From Aestuariibaculum sediminum (lineage in GTDB: Bacteria > Bacteroidota > Bacteroidia > Flavobacteriales > Flavobacteriaceae): a stretch of 64,000 nucleotides of DNA. The first letter of the stretch is position 1. Each line of letters opens with the position of its first letter. Made by a program: the position numbers and the translations under genes. A model generated the notes under the pieces. That model made no database searches, was not told the DNA's origin, and saw nothing but the letters and a program-made list of their open reading frames with translations. The stretch covers positions 1 through 64,000 of the forward strand of contig NZ_JACVXB010000002.1 of NCBI RefSeq assembly GCF_014596945.1. The letters run 5' to 3'. Shown piece by piece: positions 20,366-38,943 of this stretch.

Positions 20366-20605
20366 GGTACTTTTTATTAAATGGGGCTACAAATTAATAT
20401 TTTTTGTCTTACGTTATATAGGTTTAATCTTACTTTTTTAACAAAAAAGGATCTATATGGAAAATATGTGTATCTAAAAGGGATTATTTTATGTTGGAAA
20501 TCTTCAAAACGGAGTTTAACAGGTTGATTTTTATTAGTTTAAAATGATTTTAATTGGGAGTTTCTCTAATTATTCTAACCCTAAACCCATAAAATTTAGA
20601 CAAAT

Positions 20606-23032: not shown

Positions 23033-23099
23033 TTATAATGCATATGTAAATCGTCATCATAATGCCTCTTCTCTCAAGGTATTTTAAACACTTGTCTGA

Positions 23100-23945
23100 A
23101 TGGATGGAACTTATGATCATGTCGTAGCAGAGTTTAATGCTAAACTTTCAGAGATAAATAATGGAACTTTAATAAGCCTCAAAAATATCAACAAAGGTAT
23201 TCTTTTATGTAATGATGCTCTTTACCACCTGAAGACTATCGTTGAAAAGAAGGGGTTTAAAAACACAGAGGATGAAATTCGCTTTTTCAAGAGGATTAAG
23301 GTTGAGCCCTTAAGTTTACTGGTTTATTTTAATGAAGTACGGTCTTGTCAGCTTCATATGCCCAGATTGGGTTCCCGCAATAAATTGGCATTTTTAAACA
23401 AGAAAATGAGGCGTGTCAATAAGTTTTTCCATCGCTATTCAGACTTTGTGCATTATATGGATCAGGATCTTTGTTATCTGGATAAACAATATTTTACAAG
23501 ATCTCATCAAGTCTTTCCGCTTTACGCTCTTCCTGAATCCTCATATCTAGACCCTAAATTTTTTACGTCTCATGACATGCTTTGGGCGCGAATTAAAGGT
23601 ATGAACCATTTTACCCTTTATATCCGAAGCCTTATAAAAGAAATTAAGCAGAAAAATAAAGCTAACCACTCTAATCAAACCAGATTAAAGCCAATTAAGT
23701 GGACAGCTTCAAAAATTGCTCTTACCGAACTTCTGTATGCTATTCATGAAACTCAGGTCATTAATAACGGAACAGATGATTTAAAAACCATGGCACATTT
23801 GTTTGAGCAACTCTTTGGAGTACAACTGGGAAACATCTATAAAACCTATTCAGAGATCAAGGCCAGGAAGGGCAACAGAGCCCGATTTTTGGAAGAACTC
23901 ACCGAGCGATTCAATCATAAAATGGATCAGGATGATGCCATTTAA
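23100..23945 (+). CDS. rteC: RteC-family regulator of a conjugative transposon
   Basis: The protein matches RteC in length (281 aa) and layout: a basic N-terminal part with an RxKxxFL-type region and a winged-helix-like C-terminal half (KWTASKIALTELLYAIHETQVINNG). In CTnDOT, RteC binds inverted half-sites and activates the excision operon. Here the excisionase-like gene lies 300 bp downstream with inverted GTTACGT/ACGTAAC elements between, so the same logic probably holds. No RteA/RteB two-component pair is seen next to it. Confidence 0.8.
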   Translation: MDGTYDHVVAEFNAKLSEINNGTLISLKNINKGILLCNDALYHLKTIVEKKGFKNTEDEIRFFKRIKVEPLSLLVYFNEVRSCQLHMPRLGSRNKLAFLNKKMRRVNKFFHRYSDFVHYMDQDLCYLDKQYFTRSHQVFPLYALPESSYLDPKFFTSHDMLWARIKGMNHFTLYIRSLIKEIKQKNKANHSNQTRLKPIKWTASKIALTELLYAIHETQVINNGTDDLKTMAHLFEQLFGVQLGNIYKTYSEIKARKGNRARFLEELTERFNHKMDQDDAI

Positions 23946-23977
23946 ACCTATAATTTTTTGTAAGAATAGTATTCGGA

Positions 23978-24132
23978 GTTACGTGTAGGTTACGTATCCC
24001 AAAAAAATCTCATTTTCATAAAATTTGAACTGTTTGATACCCCAAAAACTCAAAAAAGGACTCCAAAACACCCCAAAACGTGTCAAAAATCAAAATGTTA
24101 AAGTTTGACGTAACTACGAACGTCTTACGTAA
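23978..24132. promoter_or_regulatory. Clustered GTTACGT elements between rteC and the xis-like gene
   Basis: GTTACGT occurs at 23978-23984 and 23989-23995 (11 bp apart). The inverse ACGTAAC lies at 24108-24114 and the palindrome TTACGTAA at 24125-24132; GACGT...ACGTC arms flank 24107-24124. Such clusters suit RteC half-sites, or arm/core sites of the missing integrase. Which of the two is correct cannot be decided from sequence alone. Confidence 0.45.
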
Positions 24133-24178
24133 TAAATACATCAAAAGGATTCAGCTTTGCCATTAGAAAGTCAAATCA

Positions 24179-24232
24179 ATGCAAAGTCGCCCAAAGGTTA
24201 TTTAAGGGATTTCTCGGGCGGCTTTGTTTTTT
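24179..24232 (+). promoter_or_regulatory. Leader hairpin with an 8-codon ORF, attenuator-like
   Basis: AAAGTCGCCC (24183-24192) pairs with GGGCGGCTTT (24216-24225), followed by g plus six T. An ATG at 24179 opens an 8-codon frame (MQSRPKVI) that runs through the left arm and stops at 24205. The HTH gene begins 14 nt after the T-run. The layout recalls the attenuated excision-operon leader of CTnDOT. It could alternatively be only the rteC terminator. Confidence 0.5.
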
Positions 24233-24245
24233 AAAATCAAATCTT

Positions 24246-24539
24246 ATGGCAGCAACAATTATTACCACAGATGATCTTTATGAATTTAAAATTGAATTAC
24301 TGGAAGATCTAAAAACACTTTTAAGTAATGAAACTGAGAGTCGGTCCAAAAAATGGTTAAAATCTCCAGAGGTGAGAGAACTTTTGGGAATCTCACATGG
24401 TACCCTTCAAAATCTAAGAATTAACGGCACCATTCCATACTCTAAAGTGGGCGGGGTGTTGTTTTATGATTATCAGGATATCATTAAGGTGATAGAAGAG
24501 AACAAGATTCATAATAAATTTAAAAGAAAAGGATCATGA
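24246..24539 (+). CDS. Excisionase-like HTH protein (MerR/HTH_17 type), 97 aa
   Basis: Residues ~38-90 form a winged HTH of the HTH_17 kind: WLKSPEVRELLGISHGTLQN, then TIPYSKVGGVLFYDYQDI. Such proteins include the Xis2-like factors of Bacteroides conjugative transposons. An N-terminal helix may mediate dimers. Its TGA overlaps the ATG of the next gene, giving a coupled three-gene operon ending at 25773. Confidence 0.75.
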   Translation: MAATIITTDDLYEFKIELLEDLKTLLSNETESRSKKWLKSPEVRELLGISHGTLQNLRINGTIPYSKVGGVLFYDYQDIIKVIEENKIHNKFKRKGS

Positions 24540-25114
24540 AAGATGTGAATTATATTAAGCATATGAACGCTGTTTTAATGCAGTTTTCTCTTGATGAACG
24601 TTTAAATGCAACCCATGTAAGCCTTTATTTTGCCTTATTTCAGCTTTGGAATTATTATCATTTTCCAGAATCATTTTTTATCAGTAGAGAAGATGTTATG
24701 AAAATGGCAAAATTGGGGTCAAAATCAACTTATCATAGGTGCTTAAAGGAGTTACATCAATGGAGGTATTTAGAATATTCGCCCTCTCATAATCCATTCA
24801 AAGGAAGCCAAATTATGATGTATCAATTTGAGACAAGTAGTGGTACAACCACTGGTACGACCACAGGTACAGCCAGTGGTACAAGTGCTGGACAAGCTGT
24901 GTACCAACACCATCCCATTTCAGGGACAAGCAGTGGACAAGTAGTGGGACGTAAAATAAAACATATACAAACGGGAATAAACAATAAAAACAATAATAAA
25001 CCTGGACATTTAAATTTTGAAGGTTTTTCAGAAAAAAACAAACGAAATGGCAGTGTCCCATATCAGGACAACTTAAAAACGGAATCAAAGAAAAAATATG
25101 ATGAGCCGTTATGA
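24536..25114 (+). CDS. Replication-initiator-like protein with a Gly/Thr/Ser-rich linker
   Basis: The first ~110 residues resemble the winged-helix domain of plasmid or DnaD-like initiators (HVSLYFALFQLWNYYHFPESFFISREDV). A low-complexity linker (GTTTGTTTGTASGTSAGQ, about residues 103-120) follows, encoded by 12-bp direct repeats, and the tail is basic and probably disordered. Initiator-like proteins paired with a DnaC-like loader are common in this type of element. It overlaps its neighbours by 4 nt on both sides. The role is inferred from domain type and context. Confidence 0.6.
   Translation: MKDVNYIKHMNAVLMQFSLDERLNATHVSLYFALFQLWNYYHFPESFFISREDVMKMAKLGSKSTYHRCLKELHQWRYLEYSPSHNPFKGSQIMMYQFETSSGTTTGTTTGTASGTSAGQAVYQHHPISGTSSGQVVGRKIKHIQTGINNKNNNKPGHLNFEGFSEKNKRNGSVPYQDNLKTESKKKYDEPL
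24842..24889 (+). repeat. Four 12-bp iteron-like repeats inside the initiator gene
   Basis: GGTAC recurs exactly every 12 bp (24842, 24854, 24866, 24878), each followed by a related 7-mer. Further GGACAA copies lie just beyond. The repeats encode the Gly/Thr linker but have the form of origin iterons, which many plasmids carry in or beside the initiator gene. Confidence 0.5.
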
Positions 25115-25773
25115 AACAGATTCAGCCACATATCATCATCGATGGGGATAAGAAGTTTGAGATCGGGGAATTGCAGGGCAATAAAGTGACCTACAATTTT
25201 GAAAGCATTCTCAGTTACTTGCAAAACAAGGGACAAGGGGAGTTTGGAACCGCCTTTAAACTGGACAAAGAAGATCGGGATATTCTCTTCAGACTTTGTA
25301 ATTACTTCATCAAAGACGAAGAAAACTGCAAACGTCTGGGGATTGATACGGCCAAGGGTATTTTGCTTAGTGGTCCAGTGGGGTGTGGCAAAACCACGCT
25401 CATGAAATTACTTAGAACCATCGTTCCTCATCAGAAGCCTTATAAAATTATCCCATCCAGAAATGTTGTATTTGGGTTTAATCACCTGGGCTATAAAACC
25501 ATTGAGGATTATGGCGATAGCCACTACCTGTGTTTTGATGATCTAGGTATAGAGCCACTGGGCAGACACTACGGTAAGGACTGCAATGTGATGGGAGAAG
25601 TTATCCTGTCTCGATATGAGCTGTTTTTACAACACAAGATCAAAACCCATATCACCACCAATCTTAATGCCCAGGAGCTTGAAGAGCGCTATGGTAGTCG
25701 GGTACGCTCTCGAATGCGAGAGCTGTTCAATTTGATCGCCTTTGATATGACCGCCAGGGATAAACGTAAATAA
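25111..25773 (+). CDS. DnaC/IstB-like AAA+ ATPase
   Basis: Walker A GPVGCGKT (residues 88-95), Walker B YLCFDDLG (D143-D144), and an arginine-finger region GSRVRSRMRELFNLI define a DnaC-like ATPase of 220 aa. It probably loads a helicase at the element's origin together with the initiator-like protein encoded just before (4-nt overlap). There is no transposase next to it, so an IstB role is unlikely. Confidence 0.8.
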   Translation: MKQIQPHIIIDGDKKFEIGELQGNKVTYNFESILSYLQNKGQGEFGTAFKLDKEDRDILFRLCNYFIKDEENCKRLGIDTAKGILLSGPVGCGKTTLMKLLRTIVPHQKPYKIIPSRNVVFGFNHLGYKTIEDYGDSHYLCFDDLGIEPLGRHYGKDCNVMGEVILSRYELFLQHKIKTHITTNLNAQELEERYGSRVRSRMRELFNLIAFDMTARDKRK

Positions 25774-25872
25774 TTATTTCCCGCTTGTTTTAATATACTC
25801 CCGGAAGGTTTTGTAGCAAGCCATGATGATGGTCTTTAGATTGGTAAGCAGTTCGATGTAAATGGTTTTCAT
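25774..25872 (-). CDS. Very small ORF (32 aa) coupled to the amidase gene
   Basis: MKTIYIELLTNLKTIIMACY begins the protein, followed by a basic tail. The ATG overlaps the amidase TGA (ATGA), and the stop abuts the stop of the convergent ATPase gene, so the frame fills the gap exactly. It looks like an amphipathic or membrane-active helix. I recall no characterised family; the packing is the main evidence. Confidence 0.45.
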   Translation of the reverse strand: MKTIYIELLTNLKTIIMACYKTFREYIKTSGK

Positions 25873-26525
25873 AATTTTGGATTTAGATAGTTATAAAGCC
25901 CTTCAAGTAAAGCCAGGGCAATAGCCGTAATGTGTTTTGGATTAGAAAAATAGGTAGCTTCTTCTTTTCTGGTGATAAACCCCACTTCAATCAAAACAGC
26001 TGGAAAAGCATCTGAAGCTTGTCTAAGGACAGCTAAATTGGCTCTTTTTACACCTCTGGAGTGAAATCCCAGCCGCTCATGATAGGTTTTCAAAATATGA
26101 CTGGCCAGATGACATGAGGATTCATCATAGCCACCTGATTTATTTGAGGTAAACACTTCAATACCCTTGGCGGCTGAACTAGAAGCATTGCAATGGATGG
26201 ATGTAAAAGCATTAGCGTGAAGCGTTTTAGCTAGCCTGCTGCGATCAGGTAAGGACACTAGAGTATCTGAGTATCTGGTCAGATACAACTCCAAATGGTC
26301 ATTCCAAAGGTCTCGGTTTAATTTTAAAACCTCTTTTGCTATGGCCAGGGTGATGTTTTTTTCCTGAATTCCAAAGCCTATAGCTCCAGAATCAATACCT
26401 CCATGACCGGGATCAATAATTACGATTTTCTTAAGGGAATCACCTTGAGCAAATACTAAAGCGATTTTTAGGAAAACTAGAAGAAAAATGACGTTTTGCC
26501 TCTTCAATTTTAGATTTTGAGTCAT
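25869..26525 (-). CDS. N-acetylmuramoyl-L-alanine amidase (Amidase_3)
   Basis: The signal peptide ends near VFAQG (residue 28). The zinc site and catalytic residues are all there: H41 in IDPGHGG, E55 in IQEKNI, H111 in TSIHCNA, and E180 in VLIEVGF. It cleaves the peptide stem from peptidoglycan in the periplasm. Next to tra genes it is the usual wall-opening enzyme for building the conjugation channel. It is divergent from the tra operon across a 176-bp control region. Confidence 0.88.
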   Translation of the reverse strand: MTQNLKLKRQNVIFLLVFLKIALVFAQGDSLKKIVIIDPGHGGIDSGAIGFGIQEKNITLAIAKEVLKLNRDLWNDHLELYLTRYSDTLVSLPDRSRLAKTLHANAFTSIHCNASSSAAKGIEVFTSNKSGGYDESSCHLASHILKTYHERLGFHSRGVKRANLAVLRQASDAFPAVLIEVGFITRKEEATYFSNPKHITAIALALLEGLYNYLNPKL

Positions 26526-26645
26526 GATTTTAAAGTTTTAAGCAGTTGATTTTCATATGATTTGATGCGGATTGATGCGAAATCAATTCAAACTAATTCA
26601 ATGAATATTATTTATGTAAAATATTGAAAATCAGATAGTTGAATG

Positions 26646-26683
26646 CAAATATATTGTAATTTTATAACAACGAAAAAGTTGTT
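26646..26683. promoter_or_regulatory. Divergent control region of amidase and tra operon
   Basis: AACAAC-GAAAAA-GTTGTT (26666-26683) is a perfect inverted repeat 19 bp before traE. On the minus strand TATATTTG (26653-26646) matches the -7 consensus for the amidase gene. No well-spaced -33 box is seen. Confidence 0.45.
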
Positions 26684-26701
26684 AATCAAAATACAAGTCA
26701 G

Positions 26702-26989
26702 ATGAAAAAAGCAATCTATTTTACAATCTTAAGTTTTTTGATCTCAGGAAGCAGTTTTGCTCAGATTGGAGGTATCGAACAATCGGTTAATGATGTGTCG
26801 GATACCATCCGAAGTGTCTTTCCCATCATTCTAGGGGTGATATTCTTAGTCGGTTTCTTGTTTAATGCCGGTCACTTCTTTGGTGAGAATTCAGATTTAA
26901 AGAAAGGTATTACCCGAGTGTTGGTTTTTGTATTAATAGCAGGTGCTGTGGTGGGCATTTTTACTTACCTGATTGGTATTGTTGTCTAA
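26702..26989 (+). CDS. TraE-like / VirB2-like small membrane protein
   Basis: A signal peptide (residues 1-~20, ending SSFAQ) is followed by two membrane helices in a 95-aa protein, the layout of VirB2/TrbC-type pilin subunits. It is the first gene of the tra operon and precedes the VirB3-like gene by 11 nt, the order found in Bacteroidota conjugation loci. Sequence identity to CTnDOT TraE is not obvious to me, so the name rests on position and topology. Confidence 0.65.
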   Translation: MKKAIYFTILSFLISGSSFAQIGGIEQSVNDVSDTIRSVFPIILGVIFLVGFLFNAGHFFGENSDLKKGITRVLVFVLIAGAVVGIFTYLIGIVV

Positions 26990-27000
26990 TCTGTGGTGGT

Positions 27001-27279
27001 ATGAAACAGTCCAAGGTGTATAAAGATATCAGAAAGCAAGCCATGATTATGGGGCTGCCTCTAGCATTGTTTGCGCTTTTGATGACCAGTGTGCTGGTCT
27101 CTTTACTGGTGATCATCTTTTCTTTTAGTGTGCTTATTATTGTTTTGATTGTTGCCTTTAACCTTGGACTGTATATCACCTTAACGCACCTAGCCAAAGG
27201 GCATTTGAAATGGCAGCTTAAAACGAGTTTTCCCAAAACTATCAGTTCAAAAAAACTAAGCCCTATACATTATGAATAA
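27001..27279 (+). CDS. TraF-like / VirB3-like membrane protein
   Basis: A short cytoplasmic N-terminus, a long hydrophobic hairpin (about residues 18-60) and a basic tail in 92 aa fit VirB3/TraF-like inner-membrane parts of the secretion channel. The end overlaps the ATPase gene by 8 nt, as VirB3 and VirB4 genes often do. Confidence 0.65.
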   Translation: MKQSKVYKDIRKQAMIMGLPLALFALLMTSVLVSLLVIIFSFSVLIIVLIVAFNLGLYITLTHLAKGHLKWQLKTSFPKTISSKKLSPIHYE

Positions 27280-29677
27280 ATTAAACTTCTTAGAATATTA
27301 TCCGATTTTAGATGTGCAGGATCATGTGATTTTTGCCTCCAATGGTAATGTGATTCTTGGATATACCTGTGATCTTCCCGAGATCTACTCCTTGTCCGAA
27401 GCTGATTTCGAGGTCATTCATGGGATATGGTTTCAGGCTTTTAAATCACTACCCGTGGGTACTGTCATTCATAAACAGGATATCTATCATAAAAGCAGTT
27501 ATACCTCAGAAGATTTGCCGAATACTTCCTTTTTAGAACAGGCTACGGCGAATCATTTTAAAGGTCGGGATTATCTAAAACATGAATCCTATCTGTTTTT
27601 TACCATGCCAATGAATAAGGGGATGAGCACTGCAAAATATATAAATCCCTTTATAAAATACGACAAAGGGATTTGTAAAACGGTAGATCGCCAGGTTGAG
27701 CAGTTCATGACCGCTGTAGGAGATGCGGTGTCCTATGTGAATAATAGCCGTAAACTACAATTACAGCCTATAGATATAGAAAGGGTTGAGAACTTGACCT
27801 GGCAGTATTTTAATGGTTTTAATCAGGGGTTTCTAACGGATATGAATCTGAATGCTAAAGAAATATCGGCTGGAGACCATCAGTTTGATGTCCTGGCTAT
27901 TAATAATGAGGGCTGCTTTGGAGAACTAGTCGGGTCCAGTAAAGTTAATGATCGGTTCACTTCAGATGATTTTAGTTTTCATCAGGGGTTTATTGATGGT
28001 ATAGGACTCAGTTTAGATGAGAATCATATCATTAATCAAATCATTTATTTAGATGATAAGCATAAATGGCGTAAGCTACTAGAGAAGAAAATAGAAGAAC
28101 TGAAGAAGAGCTCTAATTTCGGCACTCAAAACAAAGTCATTTTAAAAAAAATAGAAGATGTGGTTGCCCAGATTAACGAGGATGAAACTTCTAAAATCAT
28201 CAGAGGACATCTTAACGTCATGTTTTGGGCAAAGGATAAAGACAAATTAAAAGATATTGCCTCCAAAATCAAGGCTGAGTTTAAGGAACTCGATATGCTG
28301 CCGTATTACCCAAAAGGGGAGGAGCGCAAACATTATATTTTAAATTCCTTTTTTTGCCATGCTTCAAACTTCTCAAATGAAGATCTGTATGTTACCGATT
28401 TAAAGCACGCCTTGTGTTTACTAATTAATAATACCAATTATAAATCGGATGCTACCGGTGTTATCTTTAATGATAGACAATTCAATATTCCTGTGCTAAA
28501 GGATGTATGGGATGAAGGGAAGAGACGCATCAAGGCACGCAACTTTGCCATTTTTGCCCCGACTGGAGAAGGGAAGTCCTTCCTGGCCAACAATATACTT
28601 AGGCAGTACTTTGAAAGTAAAGTACGTCTGGTGATTATTGACCTGGGAGGCTCCTATTCCAAGTTTGCCAAACTCTACCCAGAGGATCATATCATTTTAA
28701 GATATGAACAAGGTAAGAACCTTGGGATTAACCCCTTTTATATTGAAAGTAAGGCGGATATTACCCCGGAGCGTTTAGAGGATTTATCCATTTTTATTTT
28801 AGAGTTACTGGCTACAGGACAAGAGGCTACTAAAGCTCAGGAAGTGGCTATTAAAAAAGTGCTTAGGCACTATTATTTACAAGCCAGGGATAAAACATAT
28901 TCTCTTTCTGGACTGTATCAGTTTGTAGATAATCGAAAGGATCAGTTGCTAAAAGATCTGGGGATTCAGGAGAGGTATTTTAACCTCTATGATTTTCTGC
29001 ATGTGTTATCGGAGTATGTCGGCGATGGCCTTTATAGTTTTCTTTTCAATACAGATGCAGATCAGACCTATAAAATTGAAGATAAAAGGCTTATTGTTTT
29101 TGAACTGGATGAAGTTCGAGACAATAAGGAGATTCTATCTGTTATGCTTAAGCTTATTAAATCAGCCATTCAGCGTACCATTTGGAGAAACAGAGCTGAG
29201 AAGGGAATCATCCTGTTCGATGAGTTTGCCAAACAACTGAAGTTTAAAAATGTTCTGGAGAGTGTTGAGTTTTACTATCAAGCCATCAGAAAGCAAAACG
29301 GAGCTATAGGTATTATTCTTCAATCCATAAATCAGCTCCCTGATAATTCAACTTCGGCCAGTATTCTAGAAAATACACAGGTGGTTTATAGTCTGCACAA
29401 TGAAAAGGGGTATGATGAGCTTAAAAAACGACTGAATCTTTCCTCTCATGATTTGAATCAACTTCGTTCAATCCGGAACAACCTCTCAGGAAAGCGCAAG
29501 TATACCGAAATGTTTATCAAAATAGGGAAGACCAGTAATATTTTCAGGTTAGAGGTGCCGAAAGAAGTTTTTGCGGCCTACCTCACCGATGGTCAGGAGA
29601 ATGAAGCTATCATGGCACTCTATAATAAGACAGGGAATATGGAAAAGGCTATTAAGGCCTACGTAAAAGATATGTAA
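27272..29677 (+). CDS. traG: TraG-family conjugation ATPase (VirB4-like)
   Basis: VirB4-type motor of 801 aa. Walker A PTGEGKS lies near residue 430, Walker B GIILFDEFAKQL near 645, and a C-terminal motif near QSINQLPDNS. The N-terminal half has the TraG_N-type sequence. It powers assembly and transport of the type IV secretion system from the inner membrane. It is intact, with no internal stops. Confidence 0.9.
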   Translation: MNKLNFLEYYPILDVQDHVIFASNGNVILGYTCDLPEIYSLSEADFEVIHGIWFQAFKSLPVGTVIHKQDIYHKSSYTSEDLPNTSFLEQATANHFKGRDYLKHESYLFFTMPMNKGMSTAKYINPFIKYDKGICKTVDRQVEQFMTAVGDAVSYVNNSRKLQLQPIDIERVENLTWQYFNGFNQGFLTDMNLNAKEISAGDHQFDVLAINNEGCFGELVGSSKVNDRFTSDDFSFHQGFIDGIGLSLDENHIINQIIYLDDKHKWRKLLEKKIEELKKSSNFGTQNKVILKKIEDVVAQINEDETSKIIRGHLNVMFWAKDKDKLKDIASKIKAEFKELDMLPYYPKGEERKHYILNSFFCHASNFSNEDLYVTDLKHALCLLINNTNYKSDATGVIFNDRQFNIPVLKDVWDEGKRRIKARNFAIFAPTGEGKSFLANNILRQYFESKVRLVIIDLGGSYSKFAKLYPEDHIILRYEQGKNLGINPFYIESKADITPERLEDLSIFILELLATGQEATKAQEVAIKKVLRHYYLQARDKTYSLSGLYQFVDNRKDQLLKDLGIQERYFNLYDFLHVLSEYVGDGLYSFLFNTDADQTYKIEDKRLIVFELDEVRDNKEILSVMLKLIKSAIQRTIWRNRAEKGIILFDEFAKQLKFKNVLESVEFYYQAIRKQNGAIGIILQSINQLPDNSTSASILENTQVVYSLHNEKGYDELKKRLNLSSHDLNQLRSIRNNLSGKRKYTEMFIKIGKTSNIFRLEVPKEVFAAYLTDGQENEAIMALYNKTGNMEKAIKAYVKDM

Positions 29678-29701
29678 ATCAATGTTTAACCATTAAAAAC
29701 C

Positions 29702-30289
29702 ATGATCATGAAAAGGAGAATTAGAACCATAGTGTTAGCATTAAGCCTAACTATTTTAGTGCCAGCAGGCGCGGCCTGCCAAGGGCTGCCGGTGTATGAT
29801 AATACTAATTTTATCAGTCTGGCTAAATCCCTGATTGAATCTGCCAAGCAGACCTCACAACTACTAAAAACTGTTAGTTTTTTAAAAGAACAAAAGGACC
29901 GTATTGAGCAGGTCAGTAATGTCATTAAACAACTGAATGCGGTCAAGGAACTCTATAAAAACAATCAGCAGCTCTATAACCTTATTCAGGATGATTTAAG
30001 AAAAATCCTGAACTCACCACATATTAGACCCGAAGAGGTTTCCCGAATCTCAGCATCTTTTGATGCGATTATTGAACAATCACTGGAGGATCTGGATTTT
30101 GTATCACAGATCTTATCCAGTAATACCCTTAAAATGACAGATGCTGAACGCGCGGTGTTTTTAAAGGAGAAGGAAGATGAGTCTAAAGAGATGGTGGCTG
30201 AGATTACCTTGAAAACCAAGCGATACAAAGAGATTATAGCCTTTAGAGATTTGCAGGACCGCATTAATACCAGAGCAACTAGTTATTAA
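29702..30289 (+). CDS. TraI-like / TrbJ-VirB5-like secreted conjugation protein
   Basis: The signal peptide ends near AACQG (residue 28; the cut may be before or after the Cys). The mature 170 residues are almost wholly helical, with coiled-coil character (SLIESAKQTSQLLKTVSFLK), like TrbJ/VirB5 minor pilus proteins. It lies between traG and the TraJ-like gene as in CTnDOT. A second Met three codons in is an equally good start. Confidence 0.65.
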   Translation: MIMKRRIRTIVLALSLTILVPAGAACQGLPVYDNTNFISLAKSLIESAKQTSQLLKTVSFLKEQKDRIEQVSNVIKQLNAVKELYKNNQQLYNLIQDDLRKILNSPHIRPEEVSRISASFDAIIEQSLEDLDFVSQILSSNTLKMTDAERAVFLKEKEDESKEMVAEITLKTKRYKEIIAFRDLQDRINTRATSY

Positions 30290-30290
30290 G

Positions 30291-31127
30291 ATGGGCTTTT
30301 TTCTTGGCATAGGACTGGAATATGTAGATGCGGTGTTTACCACCATTAAAAGCAGTGACTTTGCAGAGTATACCATTACCGGTATGAAATCTCTGGCGGT
30401 GTTGTTTTTCCTAATCAACATCCTTAAGAAATACAATGAGGGCGTAGCTACTAATGAGGGCTACACCTGGGGTCTGAGCCCTGGAGAACTGGCCAAGAAT
30501 TTTGCGGTGGTTATTTTGGTTATTTTCTCCACTCAGATTCTGGGGGTATTTGATAGTATTCTGGTAGCTATTGAAACACAATACAGAGATACGGCTCCGG
30601 CACTCCTCCCGCTTCAAATGCAGGATCTGGATATTGAGCAGGATGTGAGTGTTATGGAAGCCGCCAAAAAAGCCATGATATTACTCTATGAAGCGCTGAT
30701 GAGTCCACTATTTGGATTAAAGGTGATATCCTTTATAATAGCTCTGTTTCTATGGCTTTTGGATTTATTTATCTATCCACTGTTTTTAGCAGAGCGTTAT
30801 TTTTTGCTGGGGATTATGCAGGCCTTTTTTCCACTGGTGATAAGTCTTTCTGTTTTTGAAAAGTTTAGAAGCATGGGGTATCATTTTTTTAAGCTCTATG
30901 CGGGAGTCTATATGCTGGTGCCGGCTTTTTTCTTGGTCAATGTCTTTGTTAATAATCTCTATACAGAGATCAATACGAATTTCTGGTCTGAACTCTTTGG
31001 GACAGATTGGGGAAGCCATCTTTTTGCTCCAGTATTGGAATTAGGATCCATCGGATTTATCGTCTTTCTGAAGTTTAAACTCTATAGAAGAGCGACTTCG
31101 TTTACCATAAAACTATTCACTTCTTAA
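30291..31127 (+). CDS. traJ: TraJ-like / VirB6-like polytopic membrane protein
   Basis: About six membrane helices in 278 aa, with FFPLVISLSVFEKFRSMG and a C-terminal FIVFLKFKLYRRATSF, fit the VirB6/TraJ inner-membrane channel protein of Bacteroidota elements. It starts 1 nt after the preceding stop. Confidence 0.72.
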   Translation: MGFFLGIGLEYVDAVFTTIKSSDFAEYTITGMKSLAVLFFLINILKKYNEGVATNEGYTWGLSPGELAKNFAVVILVIFSTQILGVFDSILVAIETQYRDTAPALLPLQMQDLDIEQDVSVMEAAKKAMILLYEALMSPLFGLKVISFIIALFLWLLDLFIYPLFLAERYFLLGIMQAFFPLVISLSVFEKFRSMGYHFFKLYAGVYMLVPAFFLVNVFVNNLYTEINTNFWSELFGTDWGSHLFAPVLELGSIGFIVFLKFKLYRRATSFTIKLFTS

Positions 31128-31138
31128 AAACAAAGCTT

Positions 31139-31750
31139 ATGAAAACACCTTTTAAAGATATATACAGCGTTCTGAAGCTTAATCGGTTCATTGTTTATGC
31201 CGTTGTGATTGCTGCAGCTGTAGTCAGTATCGTTTCAATACTTCTGGTAATAAAACAGCATAAACAGATGATAGAGAGTGCTTTTGCTGTCAGTACTGAA
31301 GGTAGTGTGATTCCACTGAAACTCGTATCACAATATGAGAATCTCGAAGTAGAAGCTTTAGCCCACTTAGAACTGTTCCATAAGTATTTCTACAATATTG
31401 ATGCTGGCAATTATGAATCTCAACTAGAAAAGGCCCTGTGGTTAGGTAATAGCTCTGTAGATGCCTTGTACAGACAAAAGAAAGCTGATGGGGTGTATAA
31501 CCGGCTTTTGCAGTATTCCCTAGTGCAAAAGGTAACCCAAATAAGCTCACAAGTGAATATTCAAAAGGAACCTTACATGTTTGAAACGACTACCGTTTTT
31601 GAAATCAACAGAGGGTCTGTGATAGATACCTATGAGCTTGTAACTACCGGTAGTTTGATTCATGTGGATCGCAATTTTCCTAATAATACCCATGGGCTAC
31701 TGATTACAACTTTTTTTGAAAAAGCCTTGAGAAAAATACAAACTGAATAA
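31139..31750 (+). CDS. traK: TraK-like / VirB8-like protein
   Basis: One N-terminal membrane anchor (about residues 17-40) follows a short cytoplasmic lead, with a periplasmic NTF2-like domain behind it. The opening (FKDIYSVLKLNRFIVYAVVI) is typical of TraK proteins. It bridges the inner-membrane and periplasmic parts of the secretion system. Length (203 aa) is normal. Confidence 0.82.
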   Translation: MKTPFKDIYSVLKLNRFIVYAVVIAAAVVSIVSILLVIKQHKQMIESAFAVSTEGSVIPLKLVSQYENLEVEALAHLELFHKYFYNIDAGNYESQLEKALWLGNSSVDALYRQKKADGVYNRLLQYSLVQKVTQISSQVNIQKEPYMFETTTVFEINRGSVIDTYELVTTGSLIHVDRNFPNNTHGLLITTFFEKALRKIQTE

Positions 31751-31762
31751 ATCCAAATTAAC

Positions 31763-32692
31763 ATGAAAGTAGATAAAAATAAAATAGTCTTTGCATCCCT
31801 GATTCTATGTGTGCTTCTGTTTATTGGAGGCTATGGCATCATAGTGATGGGAGATGAGAAAGAACTCGTACTGGATACTAATAGAATACCAGTTCCTGAT
31901 CTGGCTGATGATAAAAAGGCATATGGATCCAAGCTGGAGGCCATTAATGATCTCAAAGAAGTTAAACAGACCAATGCTCCTAGTATTTATGATGAGCGTT
32001 ATCTGGACTCTTTAGGAGTTTATGATACTAGTTATGTAGATAAACAAAAGCAGAAGATCGTAGATAGCATCTATAAAAACAGTAGAATCTATTATACAGA
32101 TGCTACTGAAACTACATCAAATGAAACTCCACAAAACAGCAGTTATTCAGCACTAAAGATTAAAGCCAAAACCTTAGAAGATACTGAAGAAGAGCAGACC
32201 GATACAAAAGAACTTGGTTTGGAACATCAGCTATTTTTTGCCTCGAATCCAATAGGAGTGGTGTCAAGCGGAAGAGATAGGCTTATTCCTGTTATTGTTG
32301 ACGGTACTCAAACCGTTAAGACGGATTATAGAATTAAAATGCGGCTTCTAAAGGATACTGAAATACAAGGGCGAGTATTTCCCAGAAATATGCCAATTTA
32401 TGGTTTTGTCGATTTTAAACCCAATAGAACCATCATTGATATTAATAATCTCAATCACTATCCTGTTAAACTCAAAGCCTATGACTGGTCAGATGGTAAT
32501 GAAGGCATATATGTGAAGAATAGCTTCAGAGGCGAAGCGACCACCCAAGTTATTGGAGATGTGGTACAGGATATCAATATAGCCGGTTTGCCTCAGGTAG
32601 GTGGTGTAAAAAGCATTTTCCAAAGAAAAAATAGAAGCATCAAAGTGACCGTCCTGGATAACTACAAACTCTATTTGAAAGTAGATAACTAA
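31763..32692 (+). CDS. traM: TraM-like / VirB10-like protein
   Basis: One N-terminal membrane helix (about residues 8-27), a charged, disordered middle, and a C-terminal VirB10-like beta-barrel domain (from about residue 160; IPVIVDGTQTVKTDYRIKMR, RVFPRNMPIYGFVDF). It spans the periplasm and couples both membranes. At 309 aa it is somewhat shorter than CTnDOT TraM. Confidence 0.82.
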   Translation: MKVDKNKIVFASLILCVLLFIGGYGIIVMGDEKELVLDTNRIPVPDLADDKKAYGSKLEAINDLKEVKQTNAPSIYDERYLDSLGVYDTSYVDKQKQKIVDSIYKNSRIYYTDATETTSNETPQNSSYSALKIKAKTLEDTEEEQTDTKELGLEHQLFFASNPIGVVSSGRDRLIPVIVDGTQTVKTDYRIKMRLLKDTEIQGRVFPRNMPIYGFVDFKPNRTIIDINNLNHYPVKLKAYDWSDGNEGIYVKNSFRGEATTQVIGDVVQDINIAGLPQVGGVKSIFQRKNRSIKVTVLDNYKLYLKVDN

Positions 32693-32711
32693 CCTTTAAA
32701 ATCAATTACAA

Positions 32712-33499
32712 ATGAAAGCCTATTTAATAATTACAATATCATTGGTAATAACAACTTCTACGTTTGCTCAAAGAGTAGCTCTAGATACTATATATGCAAT
32801 GACAAGATTAATGTGGTGCTATTTTTTCCGGATTATATCAGGCAGGGGATAACTGGATCTGAAGACTTTGTGTTTACCTATAATAGAGAAAAGAAACAGT
32901 ATTTTGGATTGCTTCAGGCACGCCCTGGAAATGATAGTAACCTTTTGGCTATTACTGATGATGGACAGGTGTATTCGTATATCATTCGGTATCAGGATTC
33001 GATTTCAAAACTCAACTATTTTGTTCCAAAATCAGAAAGTATAGGTAATGAAAAGCCTAATTCTAAGCCAATAAATATAGAAAGACCTAAACCAAAACAT
33101 AAGGATTATGACTACTATGAAAAATTTAGTAAGTATCTGTTAGGTTTGGACTTTCTAACAGATCGATCTAAACGAAAAGACGGTATTGTATTAAAATTAT
33201 TGGAAACGAGATATCATATAGATGAAGTGTACATGGTATTTGAGATTAAGAATAAATCCGAGATTGATTTTGAAATAGATTATTTGAAAGTGTTTAGGGT
33301 TTCAACAAATAAGAAAAGAAAAGCTTCGTACCAGCAATTAGAATTGGACATTAATTATAAATGTGATTTTCCTGAAAAGGTTGCAAATGGAAATTCAAAA
33401 AGGTTTGTTTATGTCTTACCTAAATTTTCGTTAGGTGAAAATGAATTTATTGGATTAAGTTTAGTTGAACAGAATGGCAATAGAAAAATTAAATTTTAA
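32712..33499 (+). pseudogene. traN: TraN-like / VirB9-like gene with a frameshift
   Basis: The ATG at 32712 opens a good signal peptide (MKAYLIITISLVITTSTFAQ) and continues to ...LDTIYA. There the TraN reading jumps to another frame, in which NDKINVVLFFPDYIRQG and the rest of the domain follow to 33499. The break falls at about 32796-32800 and looks like loss of one base. The longest single frame (from 32813) lacks the export signal. Unless it is a sequencing error, the outer-membrane part of the channel is lost. Confidence 0.75.
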
Positions 33500-33870
33500 A
33501 TAGATTCAATGAAGCAGCCGGGAAGAAAGTATGCTTCAGTATATATTTACTGGAGCTTTTCTATTTTAATAAAGTGTTTCATCTGTCCATTCAGAATAAT
33601 AGTTTAAATAACCAACTCAGGTAAGATTAACTCCAACTCTTTAATCTGGTCAAAAATCTTAAAAACTCCATTTGTAATTCCCATTGTTTATTTTGAAGGA
33701 GTTCTTGTTTAAGGGTATCATCTATATTGACTTTCTTCTTTTTTTCATTCATAAATAATATTATTAATTTATTCAAAGGTAGGAAGTATCTTATTGTTGT
33801 AAAAAAATGTAATTTTATTAGTTAGATTTTATAATGGAATCATTTTAACTAAGACAATAAACATCCTATT
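33500..33870. other. Gap after traN
   Basis: It contains one weak minus-strand frame (33627-33752). In front of the orphan gene there is an inverted repeat TTAGTTA (33818-33824) / TAACTAA (33846-33852), which may be its operator. No TraO, TraP or TraQ gene is seen here, though they normally follow traN. Confidence 0.5.
33627..33752 (-). CDS. Possible small charged protein (41 aa)
   Basis: MNEKKKKVNIDDTLKQELLQ and a helical tail form a plausible amphipathic frame on the minus strand. There is no partner gene and no clear promoter, so it may be a remnant or chance. Confidence 0.25.
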   Translation of the reverse strand: MNEKKKKVNIDDTLKQELLQNKQWELQMEFLRFLTRLKSWS

Positions 33871-36800
33871 ATGACACTAAATGAGAATCAGAAACTAATT
33901 CATAATGGTTTAAAAAGTATCGGAGAGGAAATATCTGATTTTTATTTAAGTGGCTTATCAATGATAGCCGATGAAGGATTGCCTTCGAGAACATATTTAA
34001 TAGCACATTCAGCAAGGGAGATTGATGGTGGAATTAGAGATATTTTAGCCCCTAAGGAGGAGAAGTCAAAAAAGCAGAAAGAATTATCATTAGAGGGTGA
34101 ATTAAAAGATACTAAGGGGCATGTTGCTTCTATTTTGGTAGCGATAGATTTACCTATTGATGACCCTTTTGCGTTGGAATATATTGATGTAGCAACAAAG
34201 TTTGTTAAATATACTCATAGAAGTGGTGCATTTAAATCTTCAAGAGATTCAACAGATATAATATTCTTATGGGAAAGATATGAATCAATACTGCTTAAAC
34301 TATTAGGCAATTTTATTAATCAATTAAAGCAGATAGAACGAATATTAAAGTTTGACAAACCTACGGAGGAAATACTTCACACAATAAAAAATTTATTTAA
34401 GAATAGGCAGAAAGAACATTATTTTTTTTCAAATTTAAAGAGTGTTAATTGGATTAAACCATTATATAATCATGGTTTTTTTTCACCTGAAACTTTAAAG
34501 GATAGATTCTTTTGGAATCAATCTTCATATTTAGAATTCTTATCCAAGCAAATTAAAGATGGGGACATTGAAAAGGAGAATTCTGAAATTTTAGTACAAA
34601 TAATTAACGAAGTTTGTGAGTATTCTGTTCAGAAGAAAGAGATAAATAATTATAGAATCTGGTATACCTTTATTACCATACTAAGTAATATTCCTAAGGA
34701 GTTTATAAGTGATGAAATTATTGGATATTTAAATATCTTTTTTGATACAAGACATGAGAATGTTCTTGAAAGTGAAGCTATTTTTAAACTGTTGAATTCA
34801 TATTTTTTTGACAAACAAGAAGCTGTCAATTATAAAGCAAGAATTGAGAAAATTGTCAAATTAGTTTTTGCGATTTCGGATAAAGAGAAATTTATTGATC
34901 GCTCAACATATGAAACAGGTAAATATCATCCTATAGTAAGGTCTTATAAATTAAAGGAGACTTGTAAGAAAGAGGAATTTTATAAACCTATTGCTAATTT
35001 TTGTTCGAATGAAGTGATTTTTTTTGTTGCTGATAATTTATTAGTCTACTTGGAATCTGAATATATAAGTAGTTTTCAAATTCGAAGTATTTATTATTTG
35101 GATGAGGAAGATAGGCACTCTTATTCTATTCAAACAATTTATACTACCTTCCTTAAAAATTGTTGCTTAGAGATTGCTAGTTCTTCAACTGAAAGGATTA
35201 ATGAAATTATTTGGAAATTTTTAAAAAATTATAAGCATAGTCATTTTATAAAAATCTGTTTATTCATAATTTCCAAAACATGGAGTCAAACCAAATATAT
35301 ATTTTTTGAATTAATTAAAGAAAAGGATAGGAAGAAATTATTTTCTAATTCGTTTTGGGGAGATGATCTTTACTTTTTTTTAGAGGAAATTTCTGTAGAG
35401 TTGGAGCATCACGAAGAGTTAATATTAGAACAAATAATTGAAAATGGTTCACAAAATAAAGATTATTATAACAAAGAAGTTTATTTGTTAGATTATAAAT
35501 TAAGGTGGTATTCTGCTTTAAGTTCTAATTTTTATTTTAAGGAGAAGTTTGATTTTTTGAATCAAAATTTATTAAAATCTAGGGAAGAGTTTAGGCCTGA
35601 GCCTAATGTATCAATTACTATAGGAAGCAGATCGCCAATTAGTGTTGATGAGATTAATTCAATGGAGATTGTTGATTTTACCGAGTTATTAAAATCCTTT
35701 GATCCAGTTAGAAGTTTTAAAAGTCCTTGCGTAGAAGGGTTAACAGGTAATTTAGAAACTGTTGTTAGGGAAAATCCAAATTTGTTTTGTGATAATTATA
35801 AATATTTTTTAGGTGTTCCATATAGGCATATTTCAAGTATTTTTTATGGTATTACTGAAACATTTAAGAATGGAAATAACCTTAATAAGGAGAATGCTAT
35901 TTTATTTATTAGAGAGTATATTAATCAGGAGGAGTTTGGAACTAATAGGCTAAAGTTAAAAAATGCATCCTTTAAATATGATCATTTATTAGTTATATCT
36001 AGTTTCTGTAGATTTATTTCATTTGGTTTGAGAGAAGATAATAAGGGTTTTTCGGATGATTTATTACCAAGTGTCGAGGGTATTATATTTAGTTTTATAT
36101 CGACTGAATATGAAGGTATAGGTAAATTGGGTTCTGCTATGCATGCTATTAATAATACAACAGGAGTAATAATAGGTTGTTTACTTGAATATTCTCTTCG
36201 GAAAGCACGTTTAATAAAATCAGATATTAATAAGAAAGAGGCTAGGTGGTCTATAAAGGAAAAGGAAAAATTTGATGTTTTAGTGGAAAAAGGAGTTCAA
36301 GAACTCTACATGTATTTTGGGTGGCGCAGAAGAAATTTCTATTTCTTAGATTATGAATGGACTAACAATCTAATAAAACAAATACCTAAAAAGGATACTC
36401 AAACAATAAAATCTTATTTTGGATGTCACCTATTGGATTATAATACTTCGGAGTTGGATTATAAAATTTTCAAGGATATTTATATCAAAGCTATAAATGA
36501 AAATTGGCAAATTGAAGATTCAACAATGGGAGATAATTCAATAGAATTACACTCGGCAGTTTTTTACATTTTTAATTTTGAAGATTTAAATAAAGATGAA
36601 ATTATAACATTAATATTTGATCAAAAGAAGATAAAAAGAATAAGAAAAATAATTCATTCTTTGTCTTTTAAGTTTGATCAATATTTTAAAGAATTAAGTC
36701 CGGAAGATAAGGTTTTATTTAGAAAAAAAGTATTCAAAGTATGGGAAAGAACTTTAGCTGTTTTAGAAGAAAGTACAGATGTTGGAGCTAAGGAAATGCC

Positions 36801-37164
36801 AACTCTTTTTTATCTTATGAAGTACATAGATGAATTGAATGATGAAAATTATAATTTAATAAAAAGAACATCAAATTTCGGTAGACAAGGAAGAGATTTT
36901 GATGAGCTAATAAAAAATTTGAATAGGCTAAAAGTACAAGGCGATACTGAAAAAAGCGGTATTTATGCCTGCAATATATTTGTTGAGGCTGTTTTTAATG
37001 ATTATTATTATGCGTCAATTATGCAAAATGAAATAGTTGAATTTGTTGCATATTTTTATCAGCAAAATTCTTCTAAATTAAAGGAATATGCTGATAAAAT
37101 ATGCAATCAATTTGCAGAAAATGGACAGTATTTTTTAAGAGAGCTTTATGAAAATCATAATTAA
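33871..37164 (+). CDS. Large orphan protein of unknown function (1097 aa), candidate defence or cargo gene
   Basis: I recognise no known domain. The protein is cytoplasmic, without signal peptide, membrane helix, Walker motif or obvious nuclease motif. It is rich in Lys, Glu, Asn, Ile and Phe and appears helical throughout, as in HEAT/ARM-like solenoids. The N-terminus (residues ~38-60, RTYLIAHSAREIDGGIRDIL) recalls the short helical segment that opens several very large proteins found in defence islands, but this is an impression only. Base composition is visibly more AT-rich than the tra genes, suggesting a separate origin. It is a lone gene with its own upstream region, in the cargo slot between the broken traN and the att-like end. 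It is complete, which argues for selection. Confidence 0.7.
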   Translation: MTLNENQKLIHNGLKSIGEEISDFYLSGLSMIADEGLPSRTYLIAHSAREIDGGIRDILAPKEEKSKKQKELSLEGELKDTKGHVASILVAIDLPIDDPFALEYIDVATKFVKYTHRSGAFKSSRDSTDIIFLWERYESILLKLLGNFINQLKQIERILKFDKPTEEILHTIKNLFKNRQKEHYFFSNLKSVNWIKPLYNHGFFSPETLKDRFFWNQSSYLEFLSKQIKDGDIEKENSEILVQIINEVCEYSVQKKEINNYRIWYTFITILSNIPKEFISDEIIGYLNIFFDTRHENVLESEAIFKLLNSYFFDKQEAVNYKARIEKIVKLVFAISDKEKFIDRSTYETGKYHPIVRSYKLKETCKKEEFYKPIANFCSNEVIFFVADNLLVYLESEYISSFQIRSIYYLDEEDRHSYSIQTIYTTFLKNCCLEIASSSTERINEIIWKFLKNYKHSHFIKICLFIISKTWSQTKYIFFELIKEKDRKKLFSNSFWGDDLYFFLEEISVELEHHEELILEQIIENGSQNKDYYNKEVYLLDYKLRWYSALSSNFYFKEKFDFLNQNLLKSREEFRPEPNVSITIGSRSPISVDEINSMEIVDFTELLKSFDPVRSFKSPCVEGLTGNLETVVRENPNLFCDNYKYFLGVPYRHISSIFYGITETFKNGNNLNKENAILFIREYINQEEFGTNRLKLKNASFKYDHLLVISSFCRFISFGLREDNKGFSDDLLPSVEGIIFSFISTEYEGIGKLGSAMHAINNTTGVIIGCLLEYSLRKARLIKSDINKKEARWSIKEKEKFDVLVEKGVQELYMYFGWRRRNFYFLDYEWTNNLIKQIPKKDTQTIKSYFGCHLLDYNTSELDYKIFKDIYIKAINENWQIEDSTMGDNSIELHSAVFYIFNFEDLNKDEIITLIFDQKKIKRIRKIIHSLSFKFDQYFKELSPEDKVLFRKKVFKVWERTLAVLEESTDVGAKEMPTLFYLMKYIDELNDENYNLIKRTSNFGRQGRDFDELIKNLNRLKVQGDTEKSGIYACNIFVEAVFNDYYYASIMQNEIVEFVAYFYQQNSSKLKEYADKICNQFAENGQYFLRELYENHN

Positions 37165-37280
37165 TAATGGGCTTTATGTAAAATGTACTATATGTGTAAT
37201 TGTAATTTAATTTATTTGCTAATAAATAAATATTTGTTTTTGGTATATTTGTAATTTACTGAAAATCAATAAATATTCCG

Positions 37281-37304
37281 ATTCGGTCAACAATTCGGTC
37301 AACA
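37281..37304 (+). repeat. Perfect 12-bp tandem repeat
   Basis: ATTCGGTCAACA occurs twice without a gap (37281-37292, 37293-37304), about 60 bp before the tRNA-3'-like core. Tandem repeats placed this way commonly are arm sites for tyrosine recombinases. Confidence 0.7.
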
Positions 37305-37339
37305 GTAGATGTTTTGAAAGTTAAGAATGTTGTAAATAT

Positions 37340-37412
37340 AGGGTGGGAGAGATTCAGTTCGAATCCTGTCGCGATCACTGAAAGCTTCACTAGAAATAGT
37401 GGAGCTTTTTTG
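37340..37412 (+). other. att-like site: tRNA 3'-end-like sequence plus terminator
   Basis: CAGTTCGAATCCTGTCGCGA (37355-37374) has the T-loop TTCGAAT and a following 3' half like a tRNA end. The 5' part of a tRNA is absent and the T-stem pairs only partly. A terminator follows at once: AAGCTTCACTA-GAAA-TAGTGGAGCTT (37382-37407) plus a T-run. This is the usual look of an attachment site left by integration into a tRNA 3' end, with the intact tRNA expected at the other end of the element. Confidence 0.5.
37381..37412 (+). terminator. Terminator downstream of the tRNA-like end
   Basis: AAGCTTCACTA (37382-37392) pairs with TAGTGGAGCTT (37397-37407) across a GAAA tetraloop (37393-37396) with one mismatch, followed by T-rich sequence. 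GAAA-capped stems with a T-run are strong terminators. Confidence 0.8.
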
Positions 37413-37697
37413 TTTTTATGCCTTTTTAATAATTTTCTCTGGGTTCAATATGGTTGTAAAAAACGAAAATAGAGAACTGCTTACAGCAAAAAAAATTAAG
37501 CATGACTGAATTTTAAATAAGCCCTGGATTAATAATACTTCATATTAAGAATTAGATTATGGTATCTGCTATTTATGTTGTTTAATTTCCGTACCATATA
37601 ACTTGCGGCTATTCTAAATATTAAAAAAAACCAGGCACGAAGTATGTTTGTATTGTATAATTTATTCCTTATCTTAAGTAAAAATCAATAGGATACT

Positions 37698-38142: not shown

Positions 38143-38943
38143 ATGACTTTAAAAACATCTAAACCTAAAAAATTAAAAATTGGAATACTTGGCTGTGGAT
38201 GGTTAGGTATTCGTATGGTAAAAATATGGAAATCAGATAATTTTATTTATACAACAACTACAACAAAAGAAAAGATTTCAAAATTAGAAGAGGAAACGGT
38301 ACATCCTGTTTTAGTTGATTTTAAAAATGGGGATAGGAAAGATAATTGCGATGATTGGCAAGCTATGAAGTTATTAGATGTTGTGGTGATTACTGTACCT
38401 ATTAACTCTCGGAAAGATAGAAATATTGACAGTATAGAAAATAAGCTTAAAAATTTATTTGCTTTTTTAGGTGATTTTAAGGGGCAAGTTTTTTATTTGA
38501 GTTCCACAAGTGTTTATCCTAATCAACCTAAAGAATTTATTGAAGAAGAAATGCCTATTGACAAGGTATTTGTTGAAAATGAATTAAGACAGCGGTATCC
38601 TCAGATAAATATATTACGATTAGGCGGGTTAATGGGGGATGACAGGCAATTATCCAAATATAATGTTTCAAATTTAGAAGCTCCTGTAAACCACATTCAT
38701 TTTTCAGATGTTATTGGTGTAATAGAAAAAATGATGGCAGTTAAATCTTCTTCGAAATTATTTAACGTCGTAGCACCCTTGCATCCCACTAAAAGAGAGG
38801 TAATTTCAATTCAAAAAGGACAGATCTTTAATGCTCAGGATTTTGATGGAATTTCAGCTAAAATGGTGTCTTCAAAAAAAATAGAAAGAGATTTAAATTA
38901 TAAGTTTATTTATCCTAATCCCAGTAGTTTTCATTTAATATAG
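38143..38943 (+). CDS. NAD(P)-binding epimerase-like protein (YeeZ type)
   Basis: Rossmann fold with GILGCGWLGIRMV (residues ~14-26), VVVITVPINS in the third strand region, and YLSSTSVYPNQPKE like the S...Y...K-type segment of extended SDR proteins. The C-terminal part has HIHFSDVIGVI. YeeZ-like proteins are annotated as NAD-dependent epimerases without a firm substrate. It is the first ordinary chromosomal gene after the element end. Confidence 0.75.
   Translation: MTLKTSKPKKLKIGILGCGWLGIRMVKIWKSDNFIYTTTTTKEKISKLEEETVHPVLVDFKNGDRKDNCDDWQAMKLLDVVVITVPINSRKDRNIDSIENKLKNLFAFLGDFKGQVFYLSSTSVYPNQPKEFIEEEMPIDKVFVENELRQRYPQINILRLGGLMGDDRQLSKYNVSNLEAPVNHIHFSDVIGVIEKMMAVKSSSKLFNVVAPLHPTKREVISIQKGQIFNAQDFDGISAKMVSSKKIERDLNYKFIYPNPSSFHLI

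Follow-up and report, generated by a model that had tools for sequence, protein, structure and literature searches.

A DSR1-type solenoid protein with a HEPN-like domain in place of SIR2, encoded in the cargo slot of a mobile element of Aestuariibaculum sediminum: a candidate single-protein anti-phage system

The closest described systems are summarized here. The C-terminal part of DSR2 is a sensor of phage that binds the tail tube, and the SIR2 domain depletes NAD+ (PMC10973363). Phage inhibition by DSR1 is reported not to involve cell death (PMC10952713). Tha from S. aureus prophages is a single protein with a HEPN RNase that responds to tail proteins of phages (PMC11087260). Structural proteins of phages recur as triggers of defence (PMC11364771). 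Among the openly licensed papers listed, no fusion of HEPN and DSR1 was described by title or abstract.

The window, the whole 64,000-nucleotide stretch that was analysed, contains a single ORF of 1097 codons which spans exactly 33871-37164 and is divided as follows.

33871-37164, plus strand: gene for a 1097-aa protein consisting of a HEPN-like domain and a DSR1-type solenoid (ORF, profile, relatives, model)
33871-34365, plus strand: HEPN-like domain at the N-terminus (residues 1-165), where DSR1 has SIR2 (alignment, model, structural comparison)
34324-37161, plus strand: stretch matching positions 294-1225 of the PADLOC Dsr1 profile, an alpha-solenoid and putative sensor (PADLOC, six-frame search, model)

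The first-pass annotation had described this gene as very AT-rich and open for its full length, and both features were borne out. GC content was 27.2% in the ORF, 37.3% in the backbone block on its left and 34.6% in the window, the chance of 1097 open codons at the gene's own composition was about 6e-49, and the remaining two forward frames contained 98 and 162 stops. No Pfam family matched the whole protein at E<=10, and NCBIfam gave a single sub-threshold match (E 0.056). Comparison with PDB chains by single sequence and by profile returned chance-level matches only, and the phage records searched held no match. None of 36 pattern stretches in viral contigs was a relative, and none of 30 candidates was confirmed when genome contigs were scanned with the single protein as query.

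The sole PADLOC family identified was Dsr1 (PDLC04166, E 1.5e-69), with residues 152-1097 aligned to positions 294-1225 of the 1227 in the profile, although PADLOC has several Dsr1 profiles and this may not be the one that holds the experimentally tested protein. The match was also obtained in a six-frame search. The profile part before approximately position 294 is the SIR2 part, as separate SIR2 genes match there (L031 at 5-301, L004 at 2-303 and L006 at 17-283). Because the match begins behind this part, the protein represents the C-terminal region of DSR1 without the sirtuin. A SIR2 domain was absent from the protein by both the start of the Dsr1 match at 294 and the Pfam search, and neither neighbouring ORF was of the SIR2 family (TraN upstream, and an ORF at 38143-38943 without a SIR2 family downstream). 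Homology of the solenoid to that of DSR1 is virtually certain.

A model of the whole protein from a 20-row alignment (pLDDT 87, pTM 0.69) was nearly all helix. Fold searches with this model returned many HEAT/ARM proteins with a best Z of 12.1, including importins, CAND1 and PP2A-A, and Avs4 with a phage portal (8dgf_B) was aligned at Z 10.4, a value tied with unrelated HEAT proteins. DSR2 was not among the best 50 matches listed in the whole-protein fold searches, which excludes nothing. Contrary to the former description as a defence effector, the bulk of the protein is thus a solenoid of the sensor type.

A genome-contig scan that used four aligned rows of the N-terminal part as query confirmed 42 related loci (loci rather than genomes, two Poribacteria genomes being counted twice), and together with the strong Dsr1 match these overturn the initial designation of the gene as an orphan. 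By record title the loci included 18 from Poribacteria, 9 from Bacteroidota, 2 from Deltaproteobacteria and 2 from the Phycisphaerae group, with one each from Aliifodinibius (Balneolota), Thermosipho, Patescibacteria, Methanofastidiosum, Firmicutes, Omnitrophus, WS1, Thermodesulfobacterium, Streptomyces, Cloacimonetes and Actinomadura. It is doubtful that one of the hosts is an archaeon, since L054 (Methanofastidiosum MAG) and L055 (Firmicutes MAG) have identical N-domain stretches, which probably belong to one misbinned contig. Nineteen of the 42 loci were one frame of 1019-1230 aa; in the others the gene was split, truncated at a contig end or interrupted by stops. From these counts the N-domain occurs in about a dozen phyla, and the complete one-frame architecture in about nine. 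The nearest relatives were four Bacteroidota loci (L040, L044, L045, L047) with 50-56% identity. The protein was found in 0 of 98 other relatives searched. Across 395 genomes of the phylum, including that of the window, the Dsr1 profile matched 20 and the N-domain was present in 4. Dsr1 profile matches occurred in 16 of 18 genomes with N-domain loci, never before position 257, the two without a match being those of L065 and L066. The phylum of the Actinomadura genome had the N-domain in 3 of 396 genomes, Actinomadura included, and the other two frames were 1132 and 1177 aa; L169 matched the family over nearly its full length among the matches listed. By eye, a DNA-methyltransferase-like ORF and one more ORF were seen directly 5' of the HEPN-like gene at L169:4669-9951 (G1064). 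Plasmid scans gave only one Streptomyces and one Vibrio record and a 94-residue piece in Streptomyces cynarae.

The relatives are under purifying selection, with dN/dS values of 0.18-0.28 in the computable pairs of relatives: 0.185 (L045/L047), 0.280 (L030/L065) and 0.217 (L056/L057). The window/L040 pair gave 0.183 at a dS of 2.0, which is near saturation, and for window/L044 and L044/L045 the ratio cannot be computed. Nine of ten Poribacteria loci checked (L032, L034-L038, L041, L052 and L058) had the gene split within the solenoid into ORFs of about 545 and 570 aa, the second of which is in the -1 frame and at its start overlaps the stop of the first by about 24 bases, and the tenth, L033, had no such -1 frame. 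The split is conserved, and coupling or frameshifting is proposed.

The N-domain comprises about 150 residues, is helical and occupies the position of the SIR2 NADase in fused forms. In an alignment of 35 N-domains, including that of the window and omitting L038, the copy L055, L071 and L073 (partial domain or none) and four loci with early stops (L050, L062, L064, L068), residues R49, E50, R56, H116 and L141 were invariant, and H46 and R117 (34/35 each) and D57 and W134 (33/35 each) nearly so. Pfam gave no good fit over these 35 domains, with 29 families at E<=1, the commonest in six domains, and a best E listed of 0.0065. The AlphaFold2 model (pLDDT 90, pTM 0.84) contained seven helices and had no match at E<=0.001 in either the PDB by Foldseek, where chains of HEPN-type systems headed the list, or the viral structure library. 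The top match by VIA-align 2 was 6m6w_B (Z 8.6, rmsd 3.4 over 117 residues) and 12 of the best 21 structural matches listed had HEPN, HpeT or RnlA in the title, while RnlA 7aex gave Z 7.4 and the fourth match was a designed helical protein (Z 8.2), all of these being values below the Z of about 13 under which similarity between helical bundles may reflect only a common arrangement. The fifth match, 5yep, is named as a HEPN toxin in the Tha report (PMC11087260). The RX4-6H motif was not conserved, an arginine being found at -5, -6 or -7 of H116 in 4/35 N-domains and an arginine or lysine in 19/35, and HHalign of the 35 N-domains against 17 HepT-like proteins (PF01934) gave a probability of 0.9% and no profile similarity. 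As modelled, the N-domain resembles HEPN proteins in fold and is not a proven HEPN RNase.

Three related solenoids were encoded as separate genes beside a SIR2 gene (G440, L004; G178, L006; a Vibrio coralliilyticus plasmid, L031) and two near-identical ones were fused to SIR2 (G378 and G246). The two-gene form of G440 (L029:5036-11653) lies near an ORF which by eye resembles a large serine recombinase. The SIR2-partnered solenoid of L006 was closest by BLAST to HEPN-like types (L063, E 1.9e-123; L070, 6e-112), with the SIR2-type L004 at 3e-27. A tree built from 28 solenoids over 915 columns needed two label changes, forced by the starred branches. In it L006 fell with six HEPN-like rows and L073 in a group of eight supported at 100/100, and holding the five SIR2 rows as a single clade was rejected (p-AU 7.5e-42). 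This tree and test took L073 as HEPN-like, although its ORF begins at the solenoid and lacks an N-domain. A quick tree without L073 again required two changes and rejected the single SIR2 clade (p-AU 6.9e-36), and the label count on the 28-row tree was the same with L073 unlabelled. Labels were taken from domains and not from the tree, and the clade test was chosen after the BLAST result. Both trees are to be read with caution for long branches (L005 and L079, and L060 in the tree without L073) and uneven residue composition, and the rows exclude the split genes of Poribacteria, loci that are partial and the copy L055. Judged from sequence, SIR2 and HEPN-like partners are interchanged at least twice on the solenoid tree. 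DSR1 may therefore be a scaffold of exchangeable modules and not a sirtuin system as such. The Phycisphaeraceae solenoid without an N-domain, L073:6300-10925, is overlapped upstream by an ORF in which an H-x-A-R-D-I motif of remote similarity was noted by eye, and this ORF may be a separate partner.

The same defence role could be filled with a HEPN-like N-domain that has no catalytic activity and serves in oligomerisation or as an adaptor, with the phage protein sequestered or an unlinked effector recruited. This would account for the missing RX4-6H motif and is consistent with the related solenoids that act with a separately encoded SIR2 partner, because of which a solenoid need not carry its own effector. 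We regard it as unlikely, however, as four polar residues are invariant in 35/35 domains, beyond the needs of a packing domain, the domain occupies the place of SIR2 in fused forms and no partner gene is common to the compared loci except blocks common to close relatives. The N-domain is likely to be the effector, and RNA is a possible target of the predicted activity, at slightly under even odds.

The gene lies in a mobile element with the following parts.

20527-33506, plus strand: conserved conjugative-transposon-like backbone (RteC, TraG, TraM, TraN and others), 81% identical to a copy in the same genus (family scan, alignment)
32813-33499, plus strand: traN (DUF4138) with its 5' part out of frame (family scan, sequence reading)
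33507-37199, no strand: apparent exchangeable cargo slot, the G002 counterpart of which holds cyclase, E1-E2-JAB and NucC genes (alignment, PADLOC)
37200-37418, no strand: element end common to the G002 copy (84%, 220 columns), with a tRNA-Arg 3' fragment (alignment)

The first copy, in G002 of the same genus, aligned to window 20527-33506 at 81% and a second same-genus copy to 20473-33501 in two pieces at 79% and 73%, both alignments ending where traN ends. TraN in the same-genus copies was 263 and 265 aa (n=2) compared with the frameshifted gene of the window, as the first reading of this region had it. Window 37200-37418 was again aligned with the first G002 copy and the tRNA-Arg 3' fragment was present in both. 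Positions 37356-37378 matched the 3' end of tRNA-Arg(TCT) at 22/23 bases, which confirms the att-like element end previously proposed to the right of the gene, and an intact tRNA-Arg(TCT) was located elsewhere in the genome. The element end was matched by something in 74 of 299 family genomes, mostly over the 60 bases from the fragment onward, as expected for a tRNA 3' end and its terminator. Integrase and relaxase families were not found among the scanned ORFs between RteC and the right end, and the regions 24536-25114, 30291-31127 and 31139-31750 had no family match. Degradation of the element, as originally suggested, is shown only in part. An aminotransferase-type 808-aa protein at 20606-23032 is part of the common backbone and has two copies in G002 with 86-87% identity.

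The G002 slot contained a CBASS cyclase (1.4e-67), an E1-E2 gene (2e-242) with a JAB part and a NucC effector (1.3e-88) by PADLOC, which we take to be a type II CBASS layout. Different genes were located behind traN in the second copy, and two of these that were scanned gave no PADLOC match. The comparison points to the region between traN and the tRNA-Arg-like end as an exchangeable slot for defence cargo.

Among neighbours of the relatives, 102 ORFs were scanned (95 of 204 and 7 of L079) and 135 PADLOC families were recorded at E<=1e-8, many from overlapping models. Assigned by locus were AbiEii and DUF6088 in L044, HsdR in L051, DUF499 in L066 and a serine recombinase in L060, as well as PDC-S49 directly downstream in L040, HmaC in L066 and PrimPol in L044. 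The diverged 1154-aa HEPN-like/solenoid gene of L079 (8738-13954) adjoins a tyrosine integrase and DUF4062, and the Streptomyces plasmid copy adjoins TniB-, TnsA- and Mu-type transposition genes. No family was obtained for seven of the ten proteins in the set with PDC-S49, HmaC and PrimPol, and for two of the ten in the set with the other assignments. The survey first proposed, for homologues across phyla beside integrases or defence genes, gave a scattered spread over about a dozen phyla with AbiEii, HsdR and integrase neighbours; the scan was without a control, and these genes count as support only.

It is very improbable that the protein is an importin- or HEAT-like scaffold for conjugation or housekeeping with no defence role. 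The gene does adjoin tra genes, and importins, CAND1 and PP2A-A appeared in the fold searches, but its absence from the 98 other relatives and an N-domain restricted to 4/395 genomes of the phylum argue against such a role, as do the Dsr1 profile match, the other content of the G002 slot and the G002 backbone copies without the gene. A decayed DSR1 that lost both SIR2 domain and function would fit the missing SIR2 and the frameshifted traN alongside, but can be dismissed almost entirely given the frame open over 1097 codons, the dN/dS of 0.18-0.28 in related pairs and a substitute domain kept in many distant relatives of like size.

Our preferred reading, with a probability of roughly 0.65, is a single-protein anti-phage system made of a DSR1-type solenoid sensor and a swapped HEPN-like effector, and both roles are inferred from the papers on DSR2, DSR1, Tha and defence triggers. 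An anti-phage role as such is highly probable on sequence grounds. The initial guess of a phage-defence protein in a cargo slot gains from the Dsr1 match, the scattered spread, dN/dS, the neighbours and above all the CBASS genes in the G002 slot. A conjugative-transposon-like element would carry it as cargo open to exchange. By analogy with DSR2, its C-terminal 900 or so residues, the DSR1-type alpha-solenoid, would bind a conserved phage protein during infection, most likely a tail or other structural protein. The N-terminal 150 or so residues, HEPN-like and in the SIR2 NADase position, would then act as effector, most likely by cleaving RNA or otherwise attacking RNA or nucleotides with the set R49, E50, R56 and H116. 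More tentatively, the relatives may form a defence family of about a dozen phyla that joins the DSR1-type sensor to a new HEPN-derived effector class, with a putative non-RX4-6H site (H46-x2-R49-E50-x5-R56-D57 and H116-R117) and partners exchanged with SIR2 more than once.

The DSR1 scaffold would in this way be modular, as Avs proteins are known to be, and the effector domain, so far undescribed, offers a defined residue set for mutation. A comparison of SIR2 and HEPN-like versions of related solenoids, L006 and L063 for example, would distinguish the signal sensed from the response of the cell. The flavobacterial slot, which holds CBASS in one species and the 1097-aa gene in another, could be mined for more systems.

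DSR1, too, is one large protein in which the effector position is N-terminal, and its profile matches the C-terminal region described here, whereas it has SIR2 where the 1097-aa protein has a HEPN-like helical domain; the reported action of DSR1 without cell death cautions against assuming suicide. DSR2 follows the same general plan of an N-terminal effector and a large helical C-terminal sensor, but no solved structure was matched by single sequence or profile and the 1097-aa protein has no SIR2. Tha likewise has a HEPN-type effector in a single protein, and differs in its length of 301 aa, a C-terminal HEPN with RX4H and the lack of a solenoid. The modelled N-domain is similar in fold to HepT/MntA and RnlA (6m6w_B, Z 8.6; 7aex, Z 7.4), but has no conserved RX4-6H and no profile similarity to HepT-like proteins. 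Avs4 (8dgf_B) aligns with the solenoid over 685 residues at rmsd 7.9, with Z tied with unrelated solenoids, and differs in having no sequence match and in the Pfam ATPase that is missing from the 1097-aa protein. Since it has neither a SIR2 feature nor the RX4-6H motif, the protein is filed under neither DSR1 nor the HEPN RNases, and by analogy it probably works like both.
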